From positions 1-64,000 of the forward strand of contig CANQED010000006.1 in the NCBI GenBank assembly GCA_947594425.1: DNA of 64,000 nucleotides. Reading direction: 5' to 3'. A program made the translations under genes and the position numbers. Under the pieces are notes generated by a model. The model was not told the DNA's origin, did not search any database, and saw nothing but the letters and a program-made list of their open reading frames with translations. This stretch comes from an uncultured Ruminiclostridium sp. Its GTDB lineage: Bacteria > Bacillota > Clostridia > Oscillospirales > Ruminococcaceae. How positions within the stretch are numbered: the first letter of the stretch is position 1; each line of letters opens with the position of its first letter. Shown here in pieces: positions 3,541 through 53,372 of the stretch.

Positions 3541-3677
3541 GTATGATATGCAACCCATATCGCATATAGCAAATATTTCAATCCACGCTCCGCGCGAGGC
3601 GGAGCGACAAACCGTTACAATCAGACAAAGAAGTACTTGAAGAATTTCAATCCACGCTCCGCGCGAGGCGGAGCGAC

Positions 3678-10045: not shown

Positions 10046-10048
10046 TTT

Positions 10049-11926: not shown

Positions 11927-12680
11927 TCGGTTCACCTCCGAAAATCTCGGACAGCCCTTCTTCGGAAAGCCCCGAAAAGTTTTCGAATTCTTTTCCGAAA
12001 GGTTTTATGGCTTGGGGTTTTATGTGGCGCTTTATTGTACATTCTTTCGGAGGTATGAATTCAATAACGCCGTCCTTCATCACGGGATTCCAAAAACGTA
12101 CCGTAAGAAGTCCCTTATCTTCGTCAAGCTCCGCTTCATCCGCATAAGTTATGCCGTGGTACATAAGGCTGTACGGTATTTCTCCCGTATTATCGTAAAA
12201 ACCCTTGCCCTCGCCGAATTTACAAGGCTCTACATAACCCTGACATTCGCGCGTTCCGAGGAAAATATCGCGCCGTCCGCCGCGCTCGATCATTCGACGC
12301 GCTATCGACAAATGCTTTCCCACGTTGCGGTCACATTCGAGTTCGGGACGGTTTAAGTTCCACTCGAAATGTGCCTTTACCTGATAGCATACATCATCAA
12401 GATAAGTGTAATAAGCAAGGTCGTTTGAGCCGTCATTATATTTTATCGGTCTGGCGCCTCTGCGTACGGTCCTTATCTGATTTACCACGCGCACCTTGTC
12501 TATGATCCAGACAACAGTCGGCTTCCAGTATACGCTTTGAAGTATGCCTTTAAGAGCCTCATAAGTCGGTATCATGTATGTACATCGCTCGCCGCCTACC
12601 TTTGTCAGAATATCGGTAAACAGTGCCGACGCTCCCGTGACCTGAAATTCAACGCCCCATTCTCCGCTGTTTTTTTCCAC
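11910..12680 (-). CDS. cas5: Cas5d, crRNA-processing Cascade subunit
   Basis: A 256-residue Cas5d (Cas5c). It starts with a GTG at 12680, seven bases after AAGGGAG. Segments EFQVTGASALFTDILTKVGG, EALKGILQSVYWKP and VKAHFEWNLNRPE belong to the family core. In I-C systems this protein both caps the crRNA 5' handle and cuts the repeat hairpin, taking the place of Cas6, so the absence of cas6 here is normal. It lies 13 bases after cas3 and overlaps cas8c. Confidence 0.93.
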   Translation of the reverse strand: MEKNSGEWGVEFQVTGASALFTDILTKVGGERCTYMIPTYEALKGILQSVYWKPTVVWIIDKVRVVNQIRTVRRGARPIKYNDGSNDLAYYTYLDDVCYQVKAHFEWNLNRPELECDRNVGKHLSIARRMIERGGRRDIFLGTRECQGYVEPCKFGEGKGFYDNTGEIPYSLMYHGITYADEAELDEDKGLLTVRFWNPVMKDGVIEFIPPKECTIKRHIKPQAIKPFGKEFENFSGLSEEGLSEIFGGEPNELGE

Positions 12681-12693
12681 AATATCACTCCCT

Positions 12694-19796: not shown

Positions 19797-20294
19797 ATGG
19801 CTTTTAAGAAAAGCATTGTACCTTTTACCCAGACGCCTGAGCAGGAAAAGCAGCTCATGGAAGTCATCGAGCGGGAAAAAGGACACAAGGGCGCGCTGAT
19901 GCCTATTTTGCAGCACGCGCAGGAGATCTACGGTTATCTGCCCATCGAGGTGCAGACGATAATCGCGGAGGAAATGGGTATCCCGTTAGAAAAGGTCTAC
20001 GGCGTCGTAACATTTTACGCACAGTTTTCCATCAACCCCAAGGGCAAGTATAAAATATCGGTATGCCTCGGTACCGCCTGCTACGTTAAGGGCTCGGGAG
20101 ATGTATACAATAAGCTCTCCGAGGTCCTTAAGATAAAGGGCGGCGAGCTTACCCCCGACGGCAAGTTCTCTCTTGAGGCGTGCAGATGTATAGGCGCGTG
20201 CGGACTTGCTCCGGTAATGACCGTAAACGACGACGTATACGGCAGGCTTACCGTTGACGAGGTAGAGGGCATACTCGCAAAGTACGAGGACTAA
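19797..20294 (+). CDS. hydC: Electron-bifurcating hydrogenase subunit HydC (NuoE-like)
   Basis: A 165-residue thioredoxin-like [2Fe-2S] protein of the NuoE/HndA family. The cluster cysteines are in CLGTACYVKG and CRCIGACG. It is the small subunit of the HydABC complex, which couples NADH and reduced ferredoxin to hydrogen formation, or the reverse. AAGGAGG is placed eight bases before the ATG. It is first in a three-gene operon whose order (C-B-A) is standard for group A3 [FeFe] hydrogenases. Confidence 0.93.
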   Translation: MAFKKSIVPFTQTPEQEKQLMEVIEREKGHKGALMPILQHAQEIYGYLPIEVQTIIAEEMGIPLEKVYGVVTFYAQFSINPKGKYKISVCLGTACYVKGSGDVYNKLSEVLKIKGGELTPDGKFSLEACRCIGACGLAPVMTVNDDVYGRLTVDEVEGILAKYED

Positions 20295-20370
20295 ACGGAT
20301 ACAGTACGAGCATTATTGCTCTCACAAACGGTCAACAACTAAAATATATTTGAAAGGAATTTAATTTATT

Positions 20371-22260
20371 ATGACTTTGACAGAGCTTGACGCTATCAAA
20401 TCAAAACTGCATAGTCAGATGATGCTGCGCAAGGAAGGTCACGCTTCTGCCGAAACCGAGGGAAAATCCTACCGCAAGCACGTATTGGTATGCGGCGGTA
20501 CCGGCTGCACCTCTTCGGGAAGCATGGGCATTATCAAAAAGTTAGAGGAAGAGCTTAAGAAAAATAATCTTCAGGACGAGATAAAGGTGGTAAAGACAGG
20601 CTGCTTCGGTCTGTGCGCACTCGGCCCGATAATGATTGTTTACCCCGAGGGTTCTTTCTACTCGATGGTAAAAGAGGAAAATATCCCCGAAATAGTTTCC
20701 GAGCACCTGCTCAACGGACGCGTCGTTGAAAGACTGCTTTATTCCGAGACGGTCACCGATCAGGGAATAAAATCGCTTAACGAGACAAACTTCTATAAAA
20801 AGCAGCACCGTGTCGCACTCAGAAACTGCGGCGTTATCAGCCCCGAGAACATTGAAGAATACATAGCGCTCGACGGCTATAAGGCGCTCGCTAAGGTTCT
20901 TACCGAGATGACCCCCGAGGACGTTATACAGACAGTCCTTGACTCAGGTCTTAGAGGACGCGGCGGCGGCGGATTTCCTACCGGCAAAAAGTGGCAGCTT
21001 GCAAGAAATCTTGTTAAGGACGCCGATCAAAAGTACGTATGCTGCAACGCCGACGAGGGCGACCCCGGAGCGTTTATGGATCGTTCGGTGCTTGAGGGCG
21101 ACCCCCACGTTGTAATTGAGGCTATGGCGATAGCGGGATACGCTATCGGCGCTACGCAGGGTTATATCTACGTTCGCGCAGAGTATCCTATCGCGGTAGA
21201 GCGTCTGCGCATAGCTATCGGTCAGGCGAGAGAGTACGGTCTGCTCGGCGACAACATACTCGGCACAGGCTTTAAGTTTGACCTTGACCTGCGTCTTGGC
21301 GCGGGAGCATTCGTATGCGGCGAGGAAACCGCGCTGATGACCTCTATCGAGGGCAACAGAGGCGAGCCCAGACCCCGTCCTCCTTTCCCCGCAGAAAGCG
21401 GTCTGTTCCAAAAGCCGACTATCTTAAACAACGTTGAGACCTACGCAAATATCCCCCAGATAATACTCAACGGCGCAGACTGGTTCGCTTCGATGGGTAC
21501 GGAAAAGTCTAAGGGCACTAAGGTATTCGCTCTCGGCGGAAAGATACACAACACCGGTCTTGTTGAGATACCTATGGGCACGACCTTACGTGAAGTTATA
21601 TACGAAATAGGCGGCGGTATCCCCAACGGCAAGGCATTTAAGGCGGCTCAGACGGGTGGCCCGTCGGGCGGCTGTATCCCCGCTGAGCACCTCGACATTC
21701 CGATAGACTACGACAACCTTATCTCTATCGGCTCGATGATGGGCTCGGGCGGACTTATCGTAATGGACGAGAACAACTGTATGGTAGATATAGCTAAGTT
21801 CTTCCTCGAGTTTACCGTTGACGAATCCTGCGGTAAATGTACCCCCTGCCGTATAGGCACTAAGCGTCTTTACGAAATGCTCGACAAGATAACCTCGGGC
21901 AACGCTACTCTTGAAGACCTTGACAAGATGGAAAAGCTTTGCTACTACATAAAGAACAATTCGCTGTGCGGTCTGGGTCAGACAGCGCCGAACCCCGTTC
22001 TTTCCACCCTACGCTACTTTAAGGACGAGTATCTTGCTCACGTCGTTGACAAGAAATGTCCCGCAGGCGTATGCCAGGATCTTCTTACCTATAAGATCCA
22101 AGAGGACAAGTGCAAGGGCTGTACCGCCTGCGCAAGAAAATGTCCTGTCGGCGCTATTTCGGGCATCGTTAAGCAGCCTCACAGCATTGACACCACTAAG
22201 TGCATCAAGTGCGGCGCTTGTATGGCTACCTGCAAGTTCGGTGCGATAATAAAGGAATAA
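20371..22260 (+). CDS. hydB: Electron-bifurcating hydrogenase subunit HydB (NuoF-like)
   Basis: A 629-residue flavoprotein. Domain order: N-terminal thioredoxin-like [2Fe-2S] domain (CGGTGCTSS at 41-49, then GCFGLCALGP), the NuoF core with the NADH site GRGGGGFPTG and FMN site CNADEGDPGAF, the [4Fe-4S] motif ESCGKCTPCRIG, and two C-terminal ferredoxin clusters (CKGCTACARKCP, CIKCGACMATCK). It holds the FMN at which bifurcation is thought to happen. Full length with all cluster cysteines present. GAAAGGAA lies before the ATG; the 76-bp gap to hydC has no terminator. Confidence 0.95.
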   Translation: MTLTELDAIKSKLHSQMMLRKEGHASAETEGKSYRKHVLVCGGTGCTSSGSMGIIKKLEEELKKNNLQDEIKVVKTGCFGLCALGPIMIVYPEGSFYSMVKEENIPEIVSEHLLNGRVVERLLYSETVTDQGIKSLNETNFYKKQHRVALRNCGVISPENIEEYIALDGYKALAKVLTEMTPEDVIQTVLDSGLRGRGGGGFPTGKKWQLARNLVKDADQKYVCCNADEGDPGAFMDRSVLEGDPHVVIEAMAIAGYAIGATQGYIYVRAEYPIAVERLRIAIGQAREYGLLGDNILGTGFKFDLDLRLGAGAFVCGEETALMTSIEGNRGEPRPRPPFPAESGLFQKPTILNNVETYANIPQIILNGADWFASMGTEKSKGTKVFALGGKIHNTGLVEIPMGTTLREVIYEIGGGIPNGKAFKAAQTGGPSGGCIPAEHLDIPIDYDNLISIGSMMGSGGLIVMDENNCMVDIAKFFLEFTVDESCGKCTPCRIGTKRLYEMLDKITSGNATLEDLDKMEKLCYYIKNNSLCGLGQTAPNPVLSTLRYFKDEYLAHVVDKKCPAGVCQDLLTYKIQEDKCKGCTACARKCPVGAISGIVKQPHSIDTTKCIKCGACMATCKFGAIIKE

Positions 22261-22298
22261 TGCCATAAATCGGATTAGTGAAAGGAATTAAATATACT

Positions 22299-24050
22299 AT
22301 GGTTAATATTAAGATCAACGGCATAGATTATCAGGTAGAAGAAGGTACTACGATACTTGAGGCTTGCCGCCAAAACGGTATCAGGATCCCTACTCTGTGC
22401 TGGCTGAAAGACATTAACGCTATAGGCGCGTGCCGTATCTGCGTTGTAGAGATGAGCGGCGCAAGAAGCCTTACCGCAGCCTGCGTATACCCGATATCCA
22501 AATTTGACGAGGGAAAGAATATTCTTACTCACTCCCCCGCTGTTCTCGAAAGCAGAAAGATGACATTGCAGCTGCTGCTGTCAGACCACAATATGGACTG
22601 CCTTGCCTGCGCAAGGAGCGGACAGTGCGAGCTTCAGGCGCTTTGTAAAGAGCTCGGCGTTGACAGCTCGGATTATTTTGAGGGCGCAAAGAACACCCAC
22701 GACATCGACCGCAGCTCTAAGCATATGTATCGTGACGATAATAAGTGTATCAGCTGCCGCCGCTGCGTCGCTGCCTGCGAAAAATATCAGGGCGTCGGCG
22801 TAATAGGCGCTAACGAGCGCGGTTTTAGGACCGAGATAGGCTGTGCTTTCGATATGGATCTTGCGGATACCGCATGCGTATCCTGCGGACAGTGCATAAC
22901 CGCTTGTCCTACCGGTGCTCTTTCCGAGAGAGACGACACCGACAAGGTATGGGCGGCTCTTGCCGACCCCGAAAAGGTCGTAGTAGTGCAGACCGCTCCC
23001 GCAGTAAGAGCGTCGCTCGGCGAGGCGTTCGGCTATCCGATAGGCACCCCCGTTGAGGGCAAGCTTGCCGCATCGCTCAGAAGGCTCGGCTTTAACGCCG
23101 TATTCGATACCAACTTCGGCGCTGACCTTACCATTATGGAAGAGGCTAACGAGTTTATCGACAGAGTGCAAAACGGCGGAGTTCTCCCGATGATAACCTC
23201 CTGCTCACCCGGCTGGATACGTTATTGCGAGGCTTACTTCCCCGAATTTTTGCCCAACCTTTCGAGCTGCAAATCTCCTCAGCAGATGGCGGGCGCTATC
23301 ATCAAGACCTACTGGGCAAAGAAGAACAATATCGACCCGAAGAATATTGTCTCGGTATCCGTAATGCCCTGCACCGCTAAGAAGTTTGAGATAGGCAGAG
23401 ATGATCAGTCGGCGGCGGGCGTTCCCGATGTTGATATATCCATCACTACAAGAGAGCTTGTTAAGATGATAAACAGAGCGGGCATACGCTTTACCGAGCT
23501 GCCCGACGAGAACTTTGACACCCCGCTCAGCGAGGGCACAGGCGCGGCAGTTATATTCGGAGCTACCGGCGGCGTTATGGAGGCAGCACTCAGGACCGCC
23601 GTATGGAAGCTTACAGGCGAGAACGCCGACAGCCCCGTTGAATTTAAAGAGGTTAGAGGCGTTGAGGGCATTAAGCTTGCCGAGTACGATGTAGCAGGTA
23701 CTAAGGTCAAGGTCGCTGTCGCTTCGGGTCTTGCTAACGCTAAGAAGCTGCTCACTCAGGTAAAGAACGGTGAGCTCGACGTTCAGTTTATCGAGATAAT
23801 GGCTTGTCCCGGCGGTTGCGTAAACGGCGGCGGACAGGTTATACAGCCCGCTGAGGTTCGCAACTTCACAGATATACGTGCCGAGCGCGCTAAGGCTCTG
23901 TACACTCTCGACAGCGAGCGCACACTCAGAAAGTCTTACGAAAGCCCCGAGATCAAAGAAGTATACGCTAACTTCCTCGGAGAGCCCGGCAGCCACACCG
24001 CACACGAGGTACTTCACACCTCTTATAAGGCAAGCAGCCTTAGCAAGTAA
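22299..24050 (+). CDS. hydA: [FeFe] hydrogenase catalytic subunit HydA (group A3)
   Basis: A 583-residue catalytic subunit. N-terminal [2Fe-2S] ferredoxin domain, a His/Cys3 cluster region (DHNMDCLACARSGQCELQ), two [4Fe-4S] clusters (CISCRRCVAACE, CVSCGQCITACP), then the H-cluster domain with L1 TSCSPGW, L2 MPCTAKKFE and L3 EIMACPGGCVNGGGQ. The L1 position that is Cys in many hydrogenases (the proton-transfer residue) is Ser here, codon TCA at 23205-23207. ATG 22299 is used because AAAGGAA (22281-22287) lies 11 bases upstream; the in-frame GTG at 22278 precedes that site. A terminator follows. Confidence 0.95.
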   Translation: MVNIKINGIDYQVEEGTTILEACRQNGIRIPTLCWLKDINAIGACRICVVEMSGARSLTAACVYPISKFDEGKNILTHSPAVLESRKMTLQLLLSDHNMDCLACARSGQCELQALCKELGVDSSDYFEGAKNTHDIDRSSKHMYRDDNKCISCRRCVAACEKYQGVGVIGANERGFRTEIGCAFDMDLADTACVSCGQCITACPTGALSERDDTDKVWAALADPEKVVVVQTAPAVRASLGEAFGYPIGTPVEGKLAASLRRLGFNAVFDTNFGADLTIMEEANEFIDRVQNGGVLPMITSCSPGWIRYCEAYFPEFLPNLSSCKSPQQMAGAIIKTYWAKKNNIDPKNIVSVSVMPCTAKKFEIGRDDQSAAGVPDVDISITTRELVKMINRAGIRFTELPDENFDTPLSEGTGAAVIFGATGGVMEAALRTAVWKLTGENADSPVEFKEVRGVEGIKLAEYDVAGTKVKVAVASGLANAKKLLTQVKNGELDVQFIEIMACPGGCVNGGGQVIQPAEVRNFTDIRAERAKALYTLDSERTLRKSYESPEIKEVYANFLGEPGSHTAHEVLHTSYKASSLSK

Positions 24051-24197: not shown

Positions 24198-27100
24198 TTA
24201 TTTTGTCTTAACTGTGATAGTCTTTGTCGCACCGTAAAGTGCGGTCTTGCCGGACATCTTGTAAGTCTTTATTCTGAATGTATACGATGTCTTGCTCTTA
24301 AGTCCCGACTTCTTAAACTCTATGGTAGAGTTTTTGGTTACCTTAGCTACGCGCGTCCAGGTGCTGCCGCTCTTCATCTCGATGATATAGCCGTCAGCGC
24401 TTGTATTCTTAGTCCACGACAGGCGAACCGCGTCCTTAGCGGAATTCTTAAGCTTTAAGCCGCTTACCGCATTCGGGTCGGTCGCATACGTGCCGTAAAC
24501 ATAACCGCTGTACAGCGCCGTCTTGCCGGACATCTTGTAGCTTCTTACTCTAAACATATATTCCGTACCCGCCGTAAGACCCGTAATACGGTACTCGAGC
24601 GTAGTATTCTTAGTGATCTTAGTCACTCTCTTCCAAGTGTTGCCGACTTTCTTTTCTATGATATAGCCGTCAGCGCTTGTATTCTTTGCCCACGCTAAGC
24701 GAAGAGCGTCTGCCGCGCGTCCCTTTAGCTTAAGTCCGCTGACGTCGGACGGATCGGTGCGTGCGCTTATCGAAACGGTATTGCCGTACAGCGCGGTCTT
24801 GCCATCCATATGATAAGGCTTTATGCGAATGGTGTATGCCGTGCCTGCGGAAAGTCCGCTTACAATATAGCCGAGCTTTGTATTGCCTACAAGCTTAGTA
24901 ACACGCTGCCAAGTGCTGCCGACTTTCTTCTCTATAATGTATCCGTCGGCTGATGCGTCCTTAGTCCACGAGAACGTTAGCGTCTTAGAGGTTCTCGCGG
25001 TGAGCTTAAAGTTCTTTACCGCAGTAGGATTAGTAGTAAAGTGAGCGGTGGTATATGCGCTGTAGTAGGTCTTGCCGCCCTCCGTCTTATATGCGCGGAT
25101 ACGCAGCTCATACTTAGTCGAGCCGCTGAGCCCGGAATATCTGTATTCGGTAACGGTATTCTTCGCTGCCTTATATATACTCTTCCACTTGCCGTCGACT
25201 AAGCATTCCAGCTCATAGCCGTCAGCCTTAGCATTCTTTGTCCAGCCTACTCTTATAGCGTCCGCTGCGCGTCCCATAAGTGCAAAGCCCTTAACCGCGT
25301 CAAGCGTAAGCTTAGCGGTTTCGTTATCCTTGTAGCTGTAGCCGCAGACGGTGCAGGTGTGCAGAGTGTAGCCCGATGCTCCGTAGGTGGGAGCGACTAC
25401 CTCTACCTTGTAATTGTGCTTTCCGGTTGCGGGGATGGTCACTGTATCTCTGCTTAGCTCGGTGCCGCAAACCTCACAGTATACGACCGATTCGTACGAG
25501 CCGCTGTGACCGCAGTCAGCAGGCTTTACATTCTCTTGAACTGCCTCTTTAGGAGTGTGTTTGCCCGTTGCGGGGATATAAGCTGTTTCTACCTCGCCGC
25601 AGCGCTCACACTCGCGCTTAATAATGCCCTCGTTGCCGCAGTCGGCGTCGTTTTCGGTCACCCAGTCGCCGTATTTATGATCATCATTAACGGGTATGGG
25701 CGCGGTTTCGGTTATTCCGCAGACTGTGCACTCGTGCTCTTTAAGTCCCGTTTCTGTGCAGTTAGCCTCAGTAAGTACTTTCCAGTCGCCGTAGGTGTGA
25801 TTGCCTGTAGCGGGGATCGTTGTGCTATCCTTTGTAGCCGAGCAGTTTTCGCAATGTATGGACTTGCTGCCCTCTTCCGAGCAGGTAGGCTCGGTATCGG
25901 TAGTAAAATCGGACTGCCACTTGTGGCCTGTCGGGTCGAGACCCTTATTTTCGGTTACGCCGCAGATATTGCAGCTTCTCTGCTGAGTGCCGTTGTCGTC
26001 GCAGTCGGGAGAGTCGATAGTTTGCCAATCGCCCCAAGTATGACCGTGTGCAGGTATGACCTCGGCCGCGCCGCGTATATCGCATATCTCGCAATGATAA
26101 GACTTGCTTCCGTCGGTGGTGCAGGTAGGCTCTACGTCTATCGTGTAGAAGTCCTCCCACTTATGCCCAGCCGCTTCAAGTCCGTTTGTCTCGGTAACGC
26201 CGCAGACTGTACACTTTCTCTGCTGAGTGCCCGTGTCGTCACAGTCGGGAGCGTTTAGAGTTTCCCATTCGCCCCAGCTATGACCGAGTGCGGGGATTAC
26301 CTCGCTCTCCTGCGTTGCGTCACATTTTGTACAATGTATGGACTGGCTGCCCTCGGTGGTACAAGTTGCGGGAACGTCTACAGTAGGCTTATCCTCCCAA
26401 GTGTGTCCCGACGCATTAAGTCCTCTCGTCTCGGTCGCGCCGCAGACGTCGCAGGTGCGCTGCTGAGTTCCCTCGTCGTCACAGTCGGGCATTTCAAGAT
26501 CTGTCCATTCGCCCCAAGTGTGACCGTTGGGAATAGTTTCACAATGAGTCCTTGTCAATTCATCATGACAAGTCTTACAGTAAACCACTTCTTCATAGCT
26601 GCCGCCGTCGGTGCATGTAGCAAGTACTTCATTTTCCTTTACAGCCGCCTGTGCTTTGTGACCCTTAGCGGGTATAGTAACGCTTGTTTTAGCTTTGTTG
26701 CATACCGTGCAGCGAATAGACTTGCTTCCGTCGGTGGTGCAGGTAGCGTCTTGATCAATAATGTAATCGCTACTCCACTTGTGGTCGGCGTCTGTGCCGT
26801 CCTTGGTGTCAAAATGCTTGCACACCTTGCACTGACGCTGGAATGAACCAGAAGAAAGCTCCTCCCAATCGCCGTATTGATGTCCGGGCGAAGTAATAGG
26901 ATTATTTTTCAAATCAATCTGTTCACCACAGAGATCACAGTAAGTAATAATTGTTTCGTTACCGTCGCTTGTACAAGTAGCGGGTATAGACTCAACGGTC
27001 TGAGTCTTTCCCGGCTTATGAGTAAGCTGAGGTATTTTCTCGCTATCTTTAGTAGCGTCGCAGTTATTGCAGTGTATAGACTTGCTTCCCTCGCTGCTGC

Positions 27101-30026
27101 AGGTAGGCTCCTTGTCAATAGTAGCCTCTTTCTGCCAATCATGACCGTTGGGGTTAATGTTTTCTTCTTCTATTTTACCGCAAACACGGCAGGTGCGTTT
27201 ACGCGCTCCGCTGTCATCACAATCGGGGGTAGATAAATCTTCCCATTTGTTCCAGCTGTGATCGTTAGGCTGCATTTCCACTTCTACAGTATCATAACGC
27301 TGTAAGCAAGTCCTGCACAGGGTATCTACTCTCTTTAGTCCCTTTTCCGTACAGGTCGGGTTTTTCAATACCTCGGAGATTTGATAATATTTAATGTGCT
27401 GACCGTAGATATTTACCTCGTCGGTTTTTGAGTTACCCGCCTTATCAGTAACAACTATTGTATATTTTTTAGATTCGCCCGAATTGTTAGTTATAGTGTA
27501 GCTCGACTGTAATATGTTAACATCGATACTTTCAGGCTTTATAACATTCGCAGCAACCGCCATAATCGACGGACCTTCCATTCCCGGATCGCCAAGAACC
27601 TTGCAATCGTACCAAGTTTCGCCGTTTACGGTTATAGTACTTATGTTAGTATCCTTTGCAGAGAATGTGACAGTTGTGCAGTAATTTCCGTCATCGGATA
27701 TGCCGGTGATCTCAGGAGCAGTTATATCAAACGATAACCCCGTTGTGCTTGCGTAAGCACTATTGCCTGCGCCATCGGTTGCTTTAACATAAATTACTAC
27801 ATTTTCATGCTTAGTCGGTGAAATGGTTATGCCATCCTTAGGATAATCTGTCCAGTCAAATTTACTAATTTTCTTAACAGCTTCTTCGGTAAGAGCTTTA
27901 GGGCTGAGATAATAGGATATATCCAAGCTCTGACCATCTATATTATCAGTAGCCGTAACAGTAAATTTCTTTTCTGTTTTATAAATCAGATCAAAGGAAG
28001 GATTATCGTAGAACGTATTCCATTCGTGTTTATTATCAGTTTGCTCATCAACAGTTATAGTTATATTAGGAGCAGTTATATCGCGGAATACAGCAGTAAA
28101 TGTTCTGTTGCCCGTGCTTTCTGCAGCTATAGTAACGTTTTTTGTAGCCTCAGCGTTGTATCCATCTTCCTGCTTAGATACCCAGCCTATGAACTCATGA
28201 TGCTCTTTATTAGCCGAGGTGGGAAGTGTGATCGCACCCGACTGAACAGTATAAGTTTTGGTATAATTTCCATTATCAGCTCTTTGCCAATCAGAATTAT
28301 CGGGAAGAGTACCGCCGTCCATTTCAAGTGTAATGGTGTAATTATGAGGCGCTTTCTCGCTGTAAAGAACGGTGTCTTTATTTACAGTTTCATTTTCAAA
28401 TTTCCACTCATTCTCTTCATTCTTATTGTCATTGTCCTTATACCATTTTTCACCCGAGGTATAGCCATTATCAACATAATCTATCTGAGGTGCGGAAATA
28501 TGTTCGTTAGTATTTACATATTGATAGCCGACTGTCTTATCACCAAGCATATATGTAACTTGGCATACCTGCTTGGTTTCTTTTTCATTATCTGACAAAA
28601 GTACAGGCGTATCATCTTTTTCGTTATCGCTAAGCTCCTGCCCCCAGATAATATTCTCTGTAGCCTTGACAGTTTTCACCTCAGCCTTACCGTTTTGCAG
28701 CTTCCATGCAGTCTCACCTGTTTTCAACTGCTCTTTGGTAAGTCCGTCTACCGAATAATTATCGGTATGACCCTGACCTACTCCGCTGCTCGTAAAGCCC
28801 TCTTTGCAGTAATAGCAGTTATAAACGCCGAAAGATTTATTATCCTTGGTTTCGTCGTTTTTGCCCTGTATGCCGACAATAGCGCCGTAGTTAGAGCCGG
28901 AGCATGTTACCTTAGCAAAGCAGCTGTCTATAAGTCCCGTATTGTATCCTGCGATACCTCCGACAGCAAATGAGCCATAGATAGTACCGTCTGCGATACA
29001 GTTTTCGATAGTGCCGTCATTAGAGGCGCACACAAGACCAATATTCATACCGGCAACGCTGACTTCACCGCACACCTCAACGTTCTTTATCGTACCACAA
29101 TTGTTACCAAAAAGACCGTATGTATAAGCGCGTCCGCTGCTGCTGATAGTGCCATCTATGTATAAGCCTTTAACGGTGTGACCCTGTCCGTCAAACACAC
29201 CCTTATATACAACGGCACTGCTGTTACTCGATAAAACAAGTCCGCTTCCGCTCCTGCCTATCGGATACCACATGGTGTCTTTGTTACCCTTAGAGCCTTC
29301 AAGGTCTATATCCGCAGTCAAAACCGCATGAGCACCGGGATTAGCAGCAACTTTCTCCTCCGGTGCGGGAGTAGTCTCCGAAGTAGTACCCGCTGTACCC
29401 GTCGTACCTTCGTCGGCGGCGGTGGTAGTTGAAGTTTCCTCTGTATCCGCCGTGCATTCTGTAGCGGAGGTGTCATCTGTAGAGGTAGCAGCCTCCAAAA
29501 CAGCCATATCCTCGGACGAAGTGTCACTTACGCTCTCGGATGTATCTTCTGTAGTTGCTGTGGTCTCTTCTGTAGTCGCCGCAGTAGTCGCCTCTGTAGT
29601 TGTTTCTGTCGCCGTAGTTGTTTCTGTCTCTGATGTAGTTTCGACCACAGTGGTAGATTCTGCGGGGGCTGTAGTAGTTTCCGGGGCAGAACTATCAGCG
29701 GGCGCTACCGAAGAACTGTCCGAGGCGGTTTCGCCATCTTTCAGTTTACTATCATCTACTTGACTATTTGTCAAGGTGCCGTTTACATATCCCGCAAACC
29801 ACCAAAGCTCATCAGCCTTAGAGATTTTAAAGGGATCATCAGAGGTACCCTTGCCCTCAGGTTGCGTAGGATTAGGCTTAGTGGCAGTACCGGCAGAATC
29901 CTGTACCTCCTGCGCAGCAGCCGCAGCTACAGGAAACAGCTCCTGTATCGGCGTAAAAAGTGCCGTAAACGCGGTCGCAAACGCTGTCAGACCCACGCCA
30001 ATTCTTTTTAACGTTGTCATAAGCAT
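24198..30026 (-). CDS. Giant secreted modular protein with CxxC and FN3 repeats
   Basis: A 1942-residue protein. A signal peptide (TTLKRIGVGLTAFATAFTAL, then VAAAAAQ) leads to a Thr/Ser/Glu-rich low-complexity stretch (about 89-229), a GLUG-like repeat region (about 275-375), a Listeria-Bacteroides-type repeat (EMDGGTLPDN...HEFIGW), Ig-like segments, 17 CxxC-bearing units (about 890-1570, many as PxC...GxxxxxCxxC) and four fibronectin type III domains (about 1570-1940). No LPXTG, S-layer or dockerin module is seen at the C-terminus, which ends in an FN3 strand. Probably an exported adhesin or matrix protein; the function is not known. The start is ATG 30026 or 30020 after AAGGAG. Confidence 0.85.
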   Translation of the reverse strand: MLMTTLKRIGVGLTAFATAFTALFTPIQELFPVAAAAAQEVQDSAGTATKPNPTQPEGKGTSDDPFKISKADELWWFAGYVNGTLTNSQVDDSKLKDGETASDSSSVAPADSSAPETTTAPAESTTVVETTSETETTTATETTTEATTAATTEETTATTEDTSESVSDTSSEDMAVLEAATSTDDTSATECTADTEETSTTTAADEGTTGTAGTTSETTPAPEEKVAANPGAHAVLTADIDLEGSKGNKDTMWYPIGRSGSGLVLSSNSSAVVYKGVFDGQGHTVKGLYIDGTISSSGRAYTYGLFGNNCGTIKNVEVCGEVSVAGMNIGLVCASNDGTIENCIADGTIYGSFAVGGIAGYNTGLIDSCFAKVTCSGSNYGAIVGIQGKNDETKDNKSFGVYNCYYCKEGFTSSGVGQGHTDNYSVDGLTKEQLKTGETAWKLQNGKAEVKTVKATENIIWGQELSDNEKDDTPVLLSDNEKETKQVCQVTYMLGDKTVGYQYVNTNEHISAPQIDYVDNGYTSGEKWYKDNDNKNEENEWKFENETVNKDTVLYSEKAPHNYTITLEMDGGTLPDNSDWQRADNGNYTKTYTVQSGAITLPTSANKEHHEFIGWVSKQEDGYNAEATKNVTIAAESTGNRTFTAVFRDITAPNITITVDEQTDNKHEWNTFYDNPSFDLIYKTEKKFTVTATDNIDGQSLDISYYLSPKALTEEAVKKISKFDWTDYPKDGITISPTKHENVVIYVKATDGAGNSAYASTTGLSFDITAPEITGISDDGNYCTTVTFSAKDTNISTITVNGETWYDCKVLGDPGMEGPSIMAVAANVIKPESIDVNILQSSYTITNNSGESKKYTIVVTDKAGNSKTDEVNIYGQHIKYYQISEVLKNPTCTEKGLKRVDTLCRTCLQRYDTVEVEMQPNDHSWNKWEDLSTPDCDDSGARKRTCRVCGKIEEENINPNGHDWQKEATIDKEPTCSSEGSKSIHCNNCDATKDSEKIPQLTHKPGKTQTVESIPATCTSDGNETIITYCDLCGEQIDLKNNPITSPGHQYGDWEELSSGSFQRQCKVCKHFDTKDGTDADHKWSSDYIIDQDATCTTDGSKSIRCTVCNKAKTSVTIPAKGHKAQAAVKENEVLATCTDGGSYEEVVYCKTCHDELTRTHCETIPNGHTWGEWTDLEMPDCDDEGTQQRTCDVCGATETRGLNASGHTWEDKPTVDVPATCTTEGSQSIHCTKCDATQESEVIPALGHSWGEWETLNAPDCDDTGTQQRKCTVCGVTETNGLEAAGHKWEDFYTIDVEPTCTTDGSKSYHCEICDIRGAAEVIPAHGHTWGDWQTIDSPDCDDNGTQQRSCNICGVTENKGLDPTGHKWQSDFTTDTEPTCSEEGSKSIHCENCSATKDSTTIPATGNHTYGDWKVLTEANCTETGLKEHECTVCGITETAPIPVNDDHKYGDWVTENDADCGNEGIIKRECERCGEVETAYIPATGKHTPKEAVQENVKPADCGHSGSYESVVYCEVCGTELSRDTVTIPATGKHNYKVEVVAPTYGASGYTLHTCTVCGYSYKDNETAKLTLDAVKGFALMGRAADAIRVGWTKNAKADGYELECLVDGKWKSIYKAAKNTVTEYRYSGLSGSTKYELRIRAYKTEGGKTYYSAYTTAHFTTNPTAVKNFKLTARTSKTLTFSWTKDASADGYIIEKKVGSTWQRVTKLVGNTKLGYIVSGLSAGTAYTIRIKPYHMDGKTALYGNTVSISARTDPSDVSGLKLKGRAADALRLAWAKNTSADGYIIEKKVGNTWKRVTKITKNTTLEYRITGLTAGTEYMFRVRSYKMSGKTALYSGYVYGTYATDPNAVSGLKLKNSAKDAVRLSWTKNTSADGYIIEMKSGSTWTRVAKVTKNSTIEFKKSGLKSKTSYTFRIKTYKMSGKTALYGATKTITVKTK

Positions 30027-30063
30027 TACTCTCCTTTCGGTCATTAAAGATCGATTCTCTCCG

Positions 30064-34208: not shown

Positions 34209-34243
34209 ATACCCGACTGCCGATTTTAAAAGCAGTCGGGTAT
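34209..34243 (+). terminator. Terminator between nadE and the ClpX-like gene
   Basis: A perfect 12-bp stem (34209-34220 with 34232-34243) followed by ATTTTT. It lies between convergent genes and may serve both. Confidence 0.82.
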
Positions 34244-34256
34244 ATTTTTCAGCTTA

Positions 34257-35879
34257 TCACGCTATGTCGAGGTGCTCGGTCGGCTTTTCGCGGTGAGGTT
34301 TGCCGCTCTTATGGACTATTTTTGCCGTATCGGACGTGCTGATAAGCACCGTGTCCGTCTCAGCGTCAAAGCCGCCGTCAAAGAAGGCCTCTGCTACTGT
34401 GTTGTGTACAAGCTCCTTTATTATATTGACGGGTCGTCTTACGCCGAGCTCGCCGAACGATACCGCGAGGAGCTCCTCGGCCGCCTTGTCGGTGATGCTT
34501 ACCTCAAAGCCAAAGGACGCGGACAGCTGCTTTGTCTTACACTTTATTAAACCAAGCATATCCTCGTCGGACATACGGTGAAAATTTATCACCTGCGTAA
34601 GTCTGCCCGCCATTTCGTCCGACATACCGTACTGTATAATATCGTCTATGGTAATATTGCCGTAAAAGGTGTCGGTCGGCTGCTCAGTCGGTTCTTCTTC
34701 TATGGCAAAGCCTAAAGCACTGTGCTTTTGTAAGCTTGACTGCCTCTTGTGTCTTAAGTCCTGAAACGCCCCCATAAGCACGAACATCGTCTTAGACGTA
34801 TCAAATAAATATTCGTTTTCGTCGTAATCTACTTTTAGCTCTATCCCCTCGATAAAGGTAAGCAGGTTTGACTGCACCGCGGCGTTTACATTTACGCCGC
34901 CCGCATAGCTCGGCACGAGCTTTTTATCGGTCTCGTCAAAAAAGCATATGCCGTACCCCTCATAGCTTTTTCCCTCGCTTATTATGCGCTTAGGGATAGC
35001 CGAGGTATTTTCCCCGCGAAAGCCCTCTTCGGTTATCCTGCTGAGGTCTATCTGTACTACGGGTATCGGTATCTTATAATCGTATATTATATCCCTTATC
35101 ACGCGGTAAAACTCGGTCTTTCCCGAGCCGCTCGGCGCGGTCAAAAGCCAGTTATCGGCAGCAAACGGCTTGTTAGACGCTATGCACTTAAGATAATTGT
35201 ATACAAGATATACCGCCTTTTTAAGCTCAGTATCCTGCCCCTTTATCCTATCCTGACAAAGCTCGAGCATTATCTCGGGGGTCAGCGCGGAGAGTATGAC
35301 CTCGGCGGCAAAGTTGCACTTATCCTCCGTAAACGCCATACCGCTTATAACCGACAGGTCGTAGATATTTCCCTGATTTAGGATCTCAAAATCAAGCTCG
35401 TAGGCATTAGTCAGCCCCAAAAAGACTCTCTCCTCGCTGTCAAAAACCGCCAGCGGCTTGCGGCAGCCGATAACACGTACAAAGCGGGTCACCTCGGGTG
35501 CGCAGGCCTCGCCGAACATCTCAGACAGATCGGTCGTTGTTATGCGTGCCTTGGGCTCGAACAGCATAAGTACCTTGCCCTCGTGTATTTCCAGCGCGCC
35601 GCAGCAGTCAAGATCGACATAGCCTGTCAATACGGTCTTGCCCTCAAAGCTTACAAGACCGTACTTGCCGTCGTCGAGACTCATAAACGCCTCGCGTGTA
35701 AACAATAACGCACCGTTTCCCGCTACGCTGATATAGGCGGTCTTTCTCTTAGCGGGGCTTATATGCTTTGCGCAGTCGCAGCAGCGGTACTTTCTGCCGC
35801 TGTAGTAAAATATCTCCCCGCTGCGTATTTGTCTGCCGCACACATCGCAATCCTTAGCCTTGATAGTTAAAGCGTTCAT
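34257..35879 (-). CDS. ClpX-like AAA+ ATPase with a long insert
   Basis: A 540-residue protein. Residues 11-36 hold Cys4 with spacing C-x2-C-x18-C-x2-C, the same as the ClpX zinc-binding domain. About 160 residues with no family I recognise follow. Then comes a ClpX-like AAA+ module: IKGQDTELKKAVYLVYNYL, Walker A PSGSGKT (249-255), pore-loop-like GFRG (286-289; GYVG in ClpX), Walker B CFFDETDK, an LGF tripeptide (389-391) where ClpX has the ClpP-docking IGF loop, MAGRL and a sensor-2 GVRR. It may unfold specific proteins, perhaps for ClpP. ATG 35879 follows AAAGGACAGG. It lies downstream of an HTH gene in a hydE operon. Confidence 0.75.
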   Translation of the reverse strand: MNALTIKAKDCDVCGRQIRSGEIFYYSGRKYRCCDCAKHISPAKRKTAYISVAGNGALLFTREAFMSLDDGKYGLVSFEGKTVLTGYVDLDCCGALEIHEGKVLMLFEPKARITTTDLSEMFGEACAPEVTRFVRVIGCRKPLAVFDSEERVFLGLTNAYELDFEILNQGNIYDLSVISGMAFTEDKCNFAAEVILSALTPEIMLELCQDRIKGQDTELKKAVYLVYNYLKCIASNKPFAADNWLLTAPSGSGKTEFYRVIRDIIYDYKIPIPVVQIDLSRITEEGFRGENTSAIPKRIISEGKSYEGYGICFFDETDKKLVPSYAGGVNVNAAVQSNLLTFIEGIELKVDYDENEYLFDTSKTMFVLMGAFQDLRHKRQSSLQKHSALGFAIEEEPTEQPTDTFYGNITIDDIIQYGMSDEMAGRLTQVINFHRMSDEDMLGLIKCKTKQLSASFGFEVSITDKAAEELLAVSFGELGVRRPVNIIKELVHNTVAEAFFDGGFDAETDTVLISTSDTAKIVHKSGKPHREKPTEHLDIA

Positions 35880-35960
35880 ATCCTGTCCTTTCGCCGTATC
35901 TCTTATCCTTACATCTAAGAGTTTATCATAAAGGAAAGGATAATTCAACCGCGTTTTCCG

Positions 35961-37364
35961 TCAGGATGGTCTTTCGGTTTTTGCGGGGAAAAGCATTTCT
36001 TTAAGCTCGCTTAGCCCCACGCCGTTACCCACCGCGGCGGTAATGAGCGTCCAAAAATACCAGTCTCTAACGTCAAAGCCTAGCTTGTACTCTATCTGCT
36101 CTAATGCGTCATCATACCTTAACAGTCTTGACGCGTCCGCACTTATCCCGAGTGCCGCCGTACGCTCCTTAGCCCTGACCGCACGCTTTAATAATCTGTC
36201 AAGGCTGCCCTCCGCCGAGGTCAGTATGATCAGTCTTGACAGGTCGGACATCTTATTAAAGTATCTGTTTGACATTGAGTAAAAGTCGCTGCTCAGCGCC
36301 CTGTCCGCCTGAGAAAGCTGCAAATTGCTTTCAAAATAATCGTCGTTGATATTAAATACTAATGCTATCGGAAATTTATCGGACAGCATATTCAGCATAT
36401 CTGCCTTTTCCTCGCGGTCTAATGCCGAAAACGACCCGTGCAGCTCCTTTTTGCGCTTAAACAGCGAGCTATCCGCAACGCCGCTGTCCTTAAACACCTC
36501 ATCGTATTTTCCGTCGATAAAGGCGTTGGGATAAGCGTACACAATTTGTCTTAGCATAGGCGGACAGCCCGAGAGTACGTCGGTGCGGTCGCTTTGGCTT
36601 ATAATATCGACGTACTTTGCGCGCGGTATTCTGTAATACCCCGCTGTGAACATAGTCTCCATAAGCTCATCGGGAAACATAAGGTCGCTTTTGTAATAAT
36701 GATCGAACAGTGCCTTAAGCACGGCATACCTTTCGTCCATATCCTTGATATAGCACTCGTTATGCCTTAGCTCGTCGAGGTCGTACTTTTTTAATTCGGG
36801 CAGTTCGTCATTTATTCCGTCAAGCGATACGTCGACTATCCGTGCAAATTCTTGCCTAAACTGCGGCGGATAATCTAGCGCGAGCACAATTTCAAGCTCG
36901 TCCGACAGCTCTTCAAGCTTACGCGCCGTATCGCCCGCGCTGTCGCAGCATATCTCGTGCGCGGTCATAAGTATCCTGTGCTGCTCGTATACGTCGGCTC
37001 TTGCGTCGGGCGTTATCTCGCCAAAGGCAGGGGTGCGCAATAAGCTTATGCGCTTTTGCGATATGCCGACCGCCGCGCCGACGTCGGTCGCGGTAACGCC
37101 CGATATAGAAAGCTGAGAAAGCACCCTGTCGAGCAGTCTTGCAAAATCATCTCTCGGTCTGAAAAGATACCCTCGATAAAATTCGCGGCTGTCAAGATAG
37201 CGGGATATTTTCTTTTGTGTAGCGGGCCTTTTCGCACTGCCGTTCATATATCCGCGAATTGTAGAACGGTCTAAGCCTGTCGCTGCGGCTATCTCGCTGA
37301 TCTTTACCTCAAGCCCTCGTCTGCGGCTGTCTAAGGCGGTATACTGCTCGTCGTATGCTCTCAT
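35961..37364 (-). CDS. HTH-domain protein of unknown function
   Basis: A 467-residue protein. Residues about 18-55 (LEVKISEIAAATGLDRSTIRGYMNG) form a helix-turn-helix like those in LacI or Xre regulators. A second HTH-like stretch is near ATDVGAAVGISQKRISLL. The rest is helical and acidic; I recognise no domain and no membrane segment. The gene starts five bases after hydE, with its ribosome site inside the last hydE codons, and is followed by the ClpX-like ATPase gene after about 80 bp. A regulator or substrate adaptor for that ATPase is possible but is only inference. Confidence 0.65.
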   Translation of the reverse strand: MRAYDEQYTALDSRRRGLEVKISEIAAATGLDRSTIRGYMNGSAKRPATQKKISRYLDSREFYRGYLFRPRDDFARLLDRVLSQLSISGVTATDVGAAVGISQKRISLLRTPAFGEITPDARADVYEQHRILMTAHEICCDSAGDTARKLEELSDELEIVLALDYPPQFRQEFARIVDVSLDGINDELPELKKYDLDELRHNECYIKDMDERYAVLKALFDHYYKSDLMFPDELMETMFTAGYYRIPRAKYVDIISQSDRTDVLSGCPPMLRQIVYAYPNAFIDGKYDEVFKDSGVADSSLFKRKKELHGSFSALDREEKADMLNMLSDKFPIALVFNINDDYFESNLQLSQADRALSSDFYSMSNRYFNKMSDLSRLIILTSAEGSLDRLLKRAVRAKERTAALGISADASRLLRYDDALEQIEYKLGFDVRDWYFWTLITAAVGNGVGLSELKEMLFPAKTERPS

Positions 37365-37368
37365 AGCT

Positions 37369-38409
37369 TCACCTTTTTACATTGCCTATATCGGTCACTA
37401 TCCTATACCCCGCATTGCGTACCCGCGCGTCAAGGCAGCCGACGCACTGTGCCGCCTCCTCGCCCGTACATATCTTGTTTTCATATAGCTCATACAGCTT
37501 TCTTACCCCGACGGGAGAGAGGTTAGGCATAACTACGTTAGCCCCCGCCTTTAGCCCTCTTTCTCTGCCGTTTGGGGCAATAGTCCCCAGCGCGGTGGTA
37601 GCGGGAATAAGCGCATACGGAAACATAAGCCTTAATATCGCCACCATACGGAGTGTCAGCTCAAGGCCTCCGCTTTGCTTATCGGCAAACGGGGTCTCTT
37701 TATGCGTTATATACGGTCCTATCCCTATCATATCCGGTGACAGCTTTTGCAAAAATCTAAGGTCGGCGATAAGATTTTCCGTCGTCTGATACGGCGACCC
37801 GACCATAAAGCCCGAGCCTACCTGATAGCCTATCTCTTTAAGGTCAAAAAGGCACTGCTTGCGCCTTTCAAGGCTCATCTCCAAGGGGTGCAGCTTTTGA
37901 TAATGCTCGTTATCGGCGGTTTCGTGGCGAAGAAGATAGCGGTTAGCGCCCGCGAGGAAAAACGCACGGTAGCTTTCCTTAGATTTCTCCCCTATAGAAA
38001 GGGTTATCGCGCAGTCGGCAAACTCTTTTCTTATCGCCGATACGATATCGCATATCCTCTCGTCGGTAAAGTACGGGTCCTCTCCTCCCTGTAAAACAAA
38101 GGTGCGAAACCCGAGCCTGTACCCCTCTTTACAGCAGCTAAGTATCTGCTCTTTATCCAGCCTGTACCTTTCAGCCGCCTTATTATCTCGGCGTATCCCG
38201 CAGTACAGGCAATTATTCTTACAATAATTAGTAAACTCGATAAGTCCCCTGATATACACCGCGTCCCCGTACCGCTCTCGCCTGATGCGGTCGGCCTCGC
38301 TGTAAAGCAAGCTGTCAAACCTGTCGGTGGATATAAGCTCGTACAGCTTATCGTCGGGCAGGTCGCCGCTGTTAGAGAGGGTATAAATATCATTTTCACA
38401 TAGAGCCAT
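37369..38409 (-). CDS. hydE: [FeFe] hydrogenase H-cluster maturase HydE
   Basis: A 346-residue radical SAM protein. The cluster motif is CKNNCLYCG, followed by the TIM-barrel features LQGGEDPYF, GSGFMVGSPYQTT and IGIGPYITHKETPF. HydE takes part in building the CO/CN-ligated di-iron centre of [FeFe] hydrogenases, so it serves the hydABC product encoded 13 kb away. hydF and hydG are not in the window. AAGGTGATAGT precedes the ATG and overlaps the stop of the upstream hydrolase; both junctions suggest one operon. Confidence 0.92.
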   Translation of the reverse strand: MALCENDIYTLSNSGDLPDDKLYELISTDRFDSLLYSEADRIRRERYGDAVYIRGLIEFTNYCKNNCLYCGIRRDNKAAERYRLDKEQILSCCKEGYRLGFRTFVLQGGEDPYFTDERICDIVSAIRKEFADCAITLSIGEKSKESYRAFFLAGANRYLLRHETADNEHYQKLHPLEMSLERRKQCLFDLKEIGYQVGSGFMVGSPYQTTENLIADLRFLQKLSPDMIGIGPYITHKETPFADKQSGGLELTLRMVAILRLMFPYALIPATTALGTIAPNGRERGLKAGANVVMPNLSPVGVRKLYELYENKICTGEEAAQCVGCLDARVRNAGYRIVTDIGNVKR

Positions 38410-38413
38410 ACTA

Positions 38414-39484
38414 TCACCTTATCTCCTGCTCCAAAAAGTCGTTTATCTGCTTAAAAAGCGCAATATCGAGCGCTGACGCCGCCGAGCGGTCCACTCCCGC
38501 ATAAAACTCGTCAAGCTGATTGTCGGGTATCTCACCGCCGTACTGTTGATAAAGCGCTTTATATTCTTCATTCTTATCATTAACATATTTTATCGCGCGG
38601 TCGGAGAAAAAAATATCGTTATGCCCTCTGTTAGGCACGGTGACGAGCTTTGCCGATTGTGAGGTTATGCTGTCGCTGTGGGCGATTATCCCCGCCCCCG
38701 TAGGAGATACTGTCTTGTCGTTCTCCCCGTGAATTATCATTATAGGCGTGCCTGAGGTATTTATCGCGTCGACGGCAGAGACCGCGCTTTGTGAGCCGAA
38801 TGCCGCGGTATTGTACAGCCATAAAAACGGATATATCAAAAATGCAGGCACACTGCCGACCGCCCTTGACGCGAACTCCGACAGCATATCTATGGGCAGC
38901 TCGTACCCCGAAAAGCTGACCGACGCGGCAATGTCGTGTCCGCTGCTCAGCACCGCCGCGGCGGCATATCCTCCCCAGCTGTGCCCCATAACCGCCTTAG
39001 GCAAAGAGCTTAGCACCGCCGAGCTCTCGCAGTAGCTTAACGCCGCGTCAAGGTCGAGCAAAGACTGCGCAAGCCCTACGGTGCCCCTGCCGCCGCTGTC
39101 ACAGCTGCCTGTCCCGTCATAGGCAAACACCCGCCAGCCGTTATCAAGAAAGTACTTTATCACCGCCGTATAATCTTCCGCCCCGCCGCCGAGACCGTGG
39201 GCGAAAACTATCAAGCCCTTATCGTTAGAATTTCCCCACACATACCCGCGCAGGGTATTATTTCCCGATAAGAAGCTTACGGTATCGCAGTCATAATATA
39301 CCTTAAGGTCGTCAAATCCTAAATAACCGGTATGCTCTTCACGCTCCGCCCTGCCGAAAAATTGCCCGAGATAGTACCCGACCAACACTGTAGAACACGC
39401 GGTATACAGCGTAAACAATACCGAGAAGATAAGTACCGCCGCCTTTAAAAGCTGTTTATGCTGTTTTTTCGGTGCTTTTGTCAT
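38414..39484 (-). CDS. Membrane-anchored alpha/beta hydrolase
   Basis: A 356-residue protein with one N-terminal membrane segment (LLKAAVLIFSVLFTLYTACS) and an extracytoplasmic alpha/beta hydrolase domain: oxyanion AHGLGGGAEDY, nucleophile elbow GHSWGGYAAA, DKTVSPTG near the acid residue, and NRGHND with the catalytic His. The substrate is unknown. GGAGG precedes the ATG. It heads the operon with hydE, the HTH gene and the ClpX-like gene. Confidence 0.85.
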   Translation of the reverse strand: MTKAPKKQHKQLLKAAVLIFSVLFTLYTACSTVLVGYYLGQFFGRAEREEHTGYLGFDDLKVYYDCDTVSFLSGNNTLRGYVWGNSNDKGLIVFAHGLGGGAEDYTAVIKYFLDNGWRVFAYDGTGSCDSGGRGTVGLAQSLLDLDAALSYCESSAVLSSLPKAVMGHSWGGYAAAAVLSSGHDIAASVSFSGYELPIDMLSEFASRAVGSVPAFLIYPFLWLYNTAAFGSQSAVSAVDAINTSGTPIMIIHGENDKTVSPTGAGIIAHSDSITSQSAKLVTVPNRGHNDIFFSDRAIKYVNDKNEEYKALYQQYGGEIPDNQLDEFYAGVDRSAASALDIALFKQINDFLEQEIR

Positions 39485-39518: not shown

Positions 39519-39547
39519 ATTATACAACCTTATTTAAAAAATGTCAA
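39519..39547 (-). promoter_or_regulatory. Promoter of the hydrolase-hydE-HTH-ClpX-like operon
   Basis: Minus strand TTGACA (39542-39547), 17-bp spacer, TATAAT (39519-39524): a perfect consensus, diverging from the galM promoter 27 bp away. Confidence 0.88.
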
Positions 39548-53149: not shown

Positions 53150-53372
53150 ATAGTAAAGGCTGTGAGAAGAAATATTAAGCAGCTGCGCCTTTTCAGAGAG
53201 AGGACGGTCGGTGCAAGTCCTTACCGCGCGTTGCCCAACCCGTCTTTGAGCCTCCGCCGAAAGGTGCGACGGGCGCTCCCGTTACAGAGCGATAAAGTGC
53301 GGTTTTACCGAAAACAGGTGGTACCGCGGACGTAATGTTCGCCCTGAGTTATACTCGGGGCGTTATTTATTT
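53150..53372 (+). promoter_or_regulatory. T-box riboswitch upstream of proS
   Basis: The conserved T-box AACAGGTGGTACCGCGG sits at 53313-53329. It is followed by a 9-bp terminator stem (53340-53348 with 53354-53362) and a T-rich tail. Upstream, AGAGAGGACGG and GGTGCAAGTCC match the stem I AG-bulge and distal loop. A proline codon candidate lies in AACCCG, in the descending side of stem I. Uncharged tRNA-Pro should favour the antiterminator and raise proS expression. Confidence 0.92.

Follow-up and report, generated by a model that had tools for sequence, protein, structure and literature searches.

What does a second ClpX-like unfoldase do when its gene lies beside that of a helix–turn–helix (HTH) protein, at the end of an apparent operon that also holds hydE? 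The question arises in a stretch of 64,000 nucleotides, hereafter the window, from an uncultured Ruminiclostridium sp. (GenBank assembly GCA_947594425.1, contig CANQED010000006.1, positions 1 to 64,000), in which two open reading frames (ORFs), 34257–35948 and 35961–37364, both on the minus strand and open without interruption, encode a ClpX-like ATPase and a tandem-HTH protein. Our analysis points to a small protein-degrading system linked to DNA, not to the making of hydrogenase, and apparently undescribed, because the two families tend to co-occur in related gut bacteria and each is also found beside other protease parts. An earlier note on this DNA had proposed a regulated proteolysis module, perhaps tied to hydrogenase maturation; the regulated module stands in that a ClpX-type unfoldase is tied to an HTH protein whose family also heads ClpP-like genes, whereas the hydrogenase tie is not supported. 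The two genes carry the following features:

34257..35879, minus strand: ClpX-like ATPase gene, 540 amino acids; the mechanical ORF extends to TTG 35948, and ATG 35879 is the most likely start
35772..35849, minus strand: N-terminal zinc finger C-x2-C-x18-C-x2-C, residues 11–36 of 540 (motif and alignment)
35310..35741, minus strand: middle alpha/beta domain, residues about 47–190, the "insert" of the earlier note (alignment and model)
34305..35297, minus strand: ClpX-type AAA+ module, residues 195–525 (Pfam, alignment and structure comparison)
35013..35024, minus strand: pore loop GFRG (alignment with ClpX)
34707..34715, minus strand: LGF tripeptide, at the site where ClpX has its ClpP-docking IGF loop (alignment with ClpX)
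35961..37364, minus strand: tandem-HTH protein, 467 amino acids; body all-helical in a low-confidence model
37242..37307, minus strand: first HTH, residues 20–41 (HTH_3, model and solved-fold match)
37038..37091, minus strand: second HTH, residues 92–109 (alignment and model), without a Pfam match of its own
36027..36095, minus strand: C-terminal family signature YKL...DWYFW, residues 424–446 (alignment)

The ATPase motifs are intact, with Walker A GSGKT, Walker B FFDETD, arginine finger AGR and sensor-2 GVRR all in place. As had been read before, the Cys spacing of the zinc finger is identical to that of ClpX: C-x2-C-x18-C-x2-C is also present in the genome's own ClpX (L062, N-terminus counted by eye), and the four Cys are conserved at a level of at least 90% in a 62-row alignment. 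The aromatic pore loop and the LGF tripeptide proposed in the earlier note were likewise borne out by alignment with ClpX, where GFRG stands opposite GYVG, and LGF opposite IGF at the position predicted to dock ClpP. The ATPase model adopts the predicted ClpX AAA+ fold, and among the solved-structure matches listed, the AAA+ core was found throughout. ClpX is thus resembled in fold, Cys4 spacing, aromatic-G pore loop, [LIV]GF tripeptide, arginine finger and sensor 2. The ATPase differs from ClpX in its low identity to solved ClpX chains (about 19–27%), in its scores below the cut-offs of the NCBIfam ClpX profiles (75 bits against 359 for NF003745; 65.5 against 370.75 for TIGR00382), in its additional middle domain, in having no visible RKH loop, in its patchy distribution and in its tandem-HTH partner family, and a true ClpX is encoded in the same genome. 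The earlier note had described an insert of about 160 residues between zinc finger and ATPase; about 155 residues do separate the two, but by alignment they belong to the family as a domain rather than being an insert of this protein alone, since the region is present, though weakly conserved, in the full-length relatives aligned. Residues 41–160 form an alpha/beta domain in the predicted structure (block means of 66–92 for the predicted local distance difference test, pLDDT), and some relatives lack both the middle region and the zinc finger (for example L025, 369 amino acids, and L039, 363 amino acids).

The HTH protein matches Pfam HTH_3 at residues 20–58 (3.1e-5, above threshold), while a Pfam search with its body gave no match at an E value of 1 or better, in keeping with the unrecognised body reported earlier. 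Two HTH_3 stretches are present in 3 of 6 family relatives tested, and the signature YKL...DW(Y/F)xW recurs at the C-terminus across much of the family. The body is all-helical in a weak model (pLDDT 59.2); a solved-fold search (VIA) matched only the first HTH, and a Foldseek search with the body gave no match below 0.001, which does not show a new fold. Relatives in the protein database number two close ones by sequence search and three by profile, each search having scored about 8000 candidates.

The two families are found together in cis and in trans, a positive answer to that part of the co-occurrence check proposed in the earlier note which concerns the two genes with each other. Among 31 public ATPase loci, and in addition to the window, six have a firmly linked and two a weakly linked HTH-family gene. 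At five of these loci (L021, L024, L025, L038 and L042), the HTH-family gene lies 5' of the ATPase gene on the same strand with no co-directional gene seen between them, and a profile built without rows from these loci recovers exactly those five proteins (36 loci, default filters); the mechanical adjacency count is 3/5 (p 0.035) against 5/5 by eye, because antisense ORFs and split ATPase frames intervene in L038 and L042. At L035, the HTH-family gene lies immediately 3' of the ATPase gene; its protein is missed by the default-filter search and unmatched by body-only profiles, but scores 1.7e-14 in the genome search and, in unfiltered searches over HTH and body, 1.1e-19 (profile A2) and 4.6e-9 (A2B). 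The weak neighbours, at L027 and L028, are convergent and HTH-like (A2 2.2e-7 and 1.6e-5; A2B 4.2 for the former and nothing for the latter). High HTH scores in the scan of linked genes are circular, because the profile contains those rows. In a tree of 31 ATPase rows and the genome's own ClpX (L047 omitted), the window ATPase belongs to a set of 13 rows (support 99/94), seven of which are HTH-linked, counting the window and the weak two. An HTH profile search of the ATPase-bearing genomes (30 of the 31 loci, L047 excluded, corresponding to 29 genomes) found a family member at 1e-4 in 11 of them. In five (G671, G672, G679, G680 and G694), this member and the ATPase are on different contigs; each of these five members matches the body profile from ATPase-linked HTH proteins, and those of G671 and G672 match both body profiles.

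The HTH family also stands beside a second type of protease gene. Starting from the window HTH protein, we found five loci (L057–L061; two in G156, the others in G094, G224 and G063) in which an HTH-family gene is followed by a ClpP-like and then a VirD4-like gene in every case; a sixth genome of that search, G136, had only a broken match (9.5e-4) and was left out. L108 (G113) has HTH, ClpP-like, a 120-amino acid ORF and VirD4-like genes, and L109 (G139) has the HTH-family gene alone. At L035/L110 (G077), a ClpX-like gene truncated at the contig start is followed in a row by HTH, ClpP-like and VirD4-like genes, and L033, L034 and L037 have ClpP-like, VirD4-like and ClpX-like genes in that order. 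In two loci tested, Pfam matches are to CLP_protease (3e-44, 6.6e-48) and T4SS-DNA_transf (5.6e-43, 1.8e-47). The Ser and His of what we take to be the catalytic triad are kept in 10 of 10 ClpP-like proteins, and the presumed Asp position is Asn in the five L057–L061 proteins (by eye). The two HTH groups show modest homology in the body: in one direction, two proteins out of five score 1.5e-10 and 7.6e-7 and the other three 0.0026 to 0.07, with 1.8e-7 in the reverse direction for the window protein against the other group's body profile; L183 and L184 match both body profiles.

A VirD4-like alignment matched 108 of 247 genomes of the family at 1e-40. Among 30 loci examined, a ClpP-like gene is next door at 17 of 19 short-type but none of 11 long conjugation-type VirD4-like loci (p 1e-6; L138, 481 amino acids and perhaps cut, counted as long, and L117, a mechanical ORF of 540 amino acids, as short), and at 12 of 14 once five short-type loci that had supplied profile rows are removed. 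By a crude measure whose ranges almost touch, the maximal 19-residue hydropathy in the first 200 residues is 0.67–1.68 for short types and 1.71–2.49 for long ones, save L138 (0.81). All four short proteins tested (L035, L037, L059 and L108) exceed the NCBIfam conju_CD1115 cut-off of 250, at 266 to 321 bits, against 587 for the long-type L134. Macro-domain proteins were found near the ClpP-like and short VirD4-like pair in 4 of 4 loci tested (L147, L149, L150 and L151), the L149 protein itself also having an HTH. From these arrangements, it is possible, though on balance doubtful, that Clostridia hold a new DNA-linked compartmental protease system, in which a ClpP-like chamber is combined with either of two interchangeable motors, a ClpX-like ring or a membrane-less one of VirD4 type, and with either of two interchangeable kinds of sensor, tandem-HTH or macro-domain proteins; the window pair would be the unfoldase-plus-sensor half of this system, working with the housekeeping ClpP. 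We know of no role for the VirD4 superfamily as a protease motor; if a VirD4-type ring feeds ClpP, the motor would come from a superfamily new to such a role, and the pairing makes one ask whether motors of the conjugation type can power a proteolytic chamber. As separate observations by eye, L148 also has a macro-domain protein near such a pair; a family of 200–265 amino acids (L153, L155, L160, L161 and L163) lies 5' of the ClpP-like and short VirD4-like genes, or of the short VirD4-like gene alone at L160 and L163, and none of the three members tested has a Pfam match; and one pair (L145, an IMG/VR record) lies on a contig catalogued as viral, which resembles a conjugative element.

The genome of the window carries one canonical ClpP. 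The tripeptide [LIVM]GF is present at 25 of 27 ATPase loci without a linked ClpP-like gene, the exceptions being L032 and L048, and at none of the four with one (p 5e-4). This count takes in 32 ATPase loci including the window, with L042 cut before the motif, L040 (two copies) scored as having it, L047 and L051 read from the alignment, and near-copies among both the 27 (L022/L023, L039/L041, L043/L044) and the four (L033/L034). Loss of the tripeptide alongside a linked ClpP-like gene is not independent evidence, because the tree gives three changes and only two independent pairs on starred branches. The pattern is compatible with predicted docking on the housekeeping ClpP at loci of the window type, though not independent of descent. 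At L040, the ClpX-like ATPase genes form a tandem pair in which [LIVM]GF is present in one member and missing from the other.

We consider it an even bet that the pair is a dedicated unfoldase–client module, in which the HTH protein is a DNA-bound substrate or adaptor and a site or promoter is controlled through its ATP-driven removal. The ATPase would assemble into a hexameric ring of the ClpX kind; one partner, either the neighbouring tandem-HTH protein or its DNA-held cargo, would be read by the zinc finger together with the variable middle domain; the aromatic pore loops would pull this partner apart; and the LGF loops would engage the single canonical ClpP of the cell, so that the DNA-bound protein would be removed or passed on for degradation. 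ClpX itself acts on DNA-bound proteins, for example MuA and phage lambda O. When a ClpX-like unfoldase comes with an HTH partner of its own, has a private middle domain and retains LGF, the best reading is a machine that takes this HTH protein off DNA or is brought there by it. The analysis shows the intact motifs, the ClpX fold of the model, the co-occurrence in cis and trans, the HTH family beside ClpP-like genes and the single canonical ClpP, while ring assembly, ClpP docking, the client role and a DNA target are inferred; substrate, adaptor and regulator look alike from sequence. Pairs of a ClpX paralogue and its own DNA-binding partner would illustrate how general unfoldases turn into sequence-addressed machines, and this pair is small, intact and amenable to in vitro work.

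Several points weigh against this reading. Twenty of the 31 public ATPase loci have no linked HTH-family or ClpP-like gene, five of them (L023, L030, L031, L047 and L049) having little or no contig 5' of the ATPase gene. No HTH-family match at 1e-4 was found in 18 of the 29 ATPase-bearing genomes, those of L027 and L028 among them; many of these are incomplete metagenome-assembled genomes, and most relatives lie on short contigs. The contrast with the background, which itself favours co-occurrence in trans, has limits too. At 1e-8, the background of the HTH family is 8/247 genomes of the taxonomic family and 5/394 of the order; without the profile-row genomes and G077, which sits in both sets, the HTH family is present in 6/24 ATPase genomes (all six at 1.7e-14 or better) against 2/241 in the background, with a Fisher p of 7e-6 that ignores descent and habitat, in samples that differ in habitat and taxonomy. 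The contrast may also be overstated because scoring depth was unequal, all candidates being scored in the ATPase genomes and at most six (family) or three (order) per background genome. No RKH loop was seen in the alignment with ClpX, where loops align poorly, and any adaptor surface in the HTH protein is unreadable because its model is poor (pLDDT 59).

The setting of the pair bears on its possible tie to HydE. In minus-strand order from 39484 to 34257, the genes are an alpha/beta hydrolase, hydE, the tandem-HTH protein and the ATPase, with gaps of 4, 4 and 81 nucleotides, and nadE converges on the ATPase gene from the opposite side:

37369..38409, minus strand: hydE, upstream gene in the same apparent operon (TIGR03956, 557 bits; linkage not conserved)
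38414..39484, minus strand: alpha/beta hydrolase gene, at the head of the apparent operon (ORF and Pfam-type annotation)
39519..39547, minus strand: promoter-like TTGACA-17-TATAAT 5' of the apparent four-gene operon, a 12/12 consensus match
34209..34243, strand not assigned: terminator-like inverted repeat in the gap where the ATPase and nadE genes converge, read by eye

The region has 8 promoter-like sites against 6.6 expected in shuffles, the listed one being the 12/12 match. Terminator-like sites (8 against 7.1 expected) are not above chance, and the automated scan gave only a sub-stem of the listed repeat. The ATPase start is most likely ATG 35879 (540 amino acids) rather than the upstream TTG 35948, because the ribosome-binding-like AAAGGACAGG precedes it and the two nearest homologues (P0001 and P0002) begin at the equivalent position. 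The HTH protein had been described as translated from within the end of hydE; its ribosome-binding-like AAAAGG is indeed inside hydE, but its ATG (37364) lies 4 nucleotides past the hydE stop.

This 4-nucleotide spacing and the shared apparent operon are what favour a hydrogenase-maturation proteolysis module tied to HydE, together with three genes at 19797–24050 of the window that by eye resemble multimeric [FeFe] hydrogenase subunits, so that hydE has a likely client here. We nonetheless regard such a module as very improbable and rejected the link on co-occurrence: hydE is present in 39 of 71 genus genomes (1e-60), two of the 71 have a strong match to the ATPase, and hydE is absent from the stretches of the other pair or module loci (L021–L062, L108–L111), the linkage being seen in the window lineage alone. 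G273 has hydE and the ATPase on different contigs, and G308 (L086) has the hydrolase-nadE-hydE neighbourhood without the pair, although we rejected L086 as a clean empty site for its other gene-order differences. A chaperone-only remodeller, which would dismantle the HTH–DNA complex without ClpP, is improbable too. ClpX can dismantle MuA complexes without ClpP, the ATPase motifs are complete and LGF docking is a prediction, but the retention of [LIVM]GF at 25 of the 27 loci without a linked ClpP-like gene speaks against this reading.

It is unlikely, though by no means negligibly so, that the HTH protein merely regulates its own operon while the unfoldase has other clients. Its gene does lie 5' of the ATPase gene within what looks like one operon, and autoregulators often have XRE-type HTHs; yet the family is on a different contig from the ATPase in five genomes, and a long body with conserved ends is unlike a simple repressor. 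More tentative than the unfoldase–client module, but worth entertaining, is that the pair is a piece of a larger protease system of tandem-HTH, ClpP-like, membrane-less VirD4-like motor and ClpX-like unfoldase, from which the window lineage keeps HTH and unfoldase and borrows the housekeeping ClpP; such a system would have DNA-bound proteins as its targets and might serve to counter incoming elements or operate inside mobile ones. The four consecutive genes of L035/L110 favour it, even with the unfoldase cut by the contig start, as do the ClpP–VirD4 genes adjoining the unfoldase in L033, L034 and L037 or following HTH in L057–L061 and L108, the integrase-like genes in the vicinity of L061 and L108, the methylase-like genes in that of L059 and L108 (both recognised by eye rather than by profile), and the lack of a canonical [LIVM]GF in all four unfoldases with a linked ClpP-like gene. 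However, this loss is confounded by descent, the other genes are absent from most ATPase loci, and in the window genome none of the 7 candidates scored, out of 22, matched the VirD4-like alignment at 1e-40.

Some known systems resemble parts of the pair. CtsR is an HTH regulator degraded by Clp. ClgR is likewise an HTH regulator and a Clp substrate (PMC12913811), and the window HTH protein shares with both a tie to Clp proteolysis; compared with them, it is longer, with a large additional body and a second HTH, and is encoded with its own unfoldase paralogue. ClpI of Actinomycetota is an extra, bioinformatically found class of Clp unfoldase, with and without an LGF motif (PMC10149685), from which the window ATPase differs in being predicted single-ringed and ClpX-like. 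For the relatives' context only, the short VirD4-like proteins resemble CD1115-type VirD4 in their profile scores, but are short, lack a clear membrane-like segment by hydropathy and mostly adjoin ClpP-like genes. A known defence system was rejected for the window pair, as PADLOC gave no match to the ATPase and only mad1 (E 0.067) to the HTH protein; mad8 matches 3 of 4 short VirD4-like relatives tested (1.1e-5 to 2.4e-11). In PHROGs, the ATPase matches phrog_4339 (3.9e-19), the best stretch being residues 330–527. A phage origin was rejected, as ATPase profile A1 found no relative in viral_contigs, and tblastn matches to 64 plasmid and 48 phage records were all below 60% identity (best plasmid 27% and best phage 33% among the 20 listed for each), many being annotated ClpX. 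Among CC-licensed PMC papers, we noticed nothing on an ATPase–HTH family.

Elsewhere in the window, a CRISPR-like array of 100 repeat copies, spaced 66–70 nucleotides, runs from 208 to about 7000 and is followed at 7504–15045 by genes that by eye resemble a type I-C cas set. Spacers are duplicated, since a 300-nucleotide stretch of the array (3644–3943) recurs identically at 4261–4560. The hydrogenase-like genes are separated from an Mrp-like ATPase gene by one that encodes a secreted-looking protein of 1948 amino acids (24198–30044, minus strand; by eye), and a T-box leader (53153–53349, plus strand; RF00230, 99.8 bits) is found just 5' of the ORF at 53390–55111.
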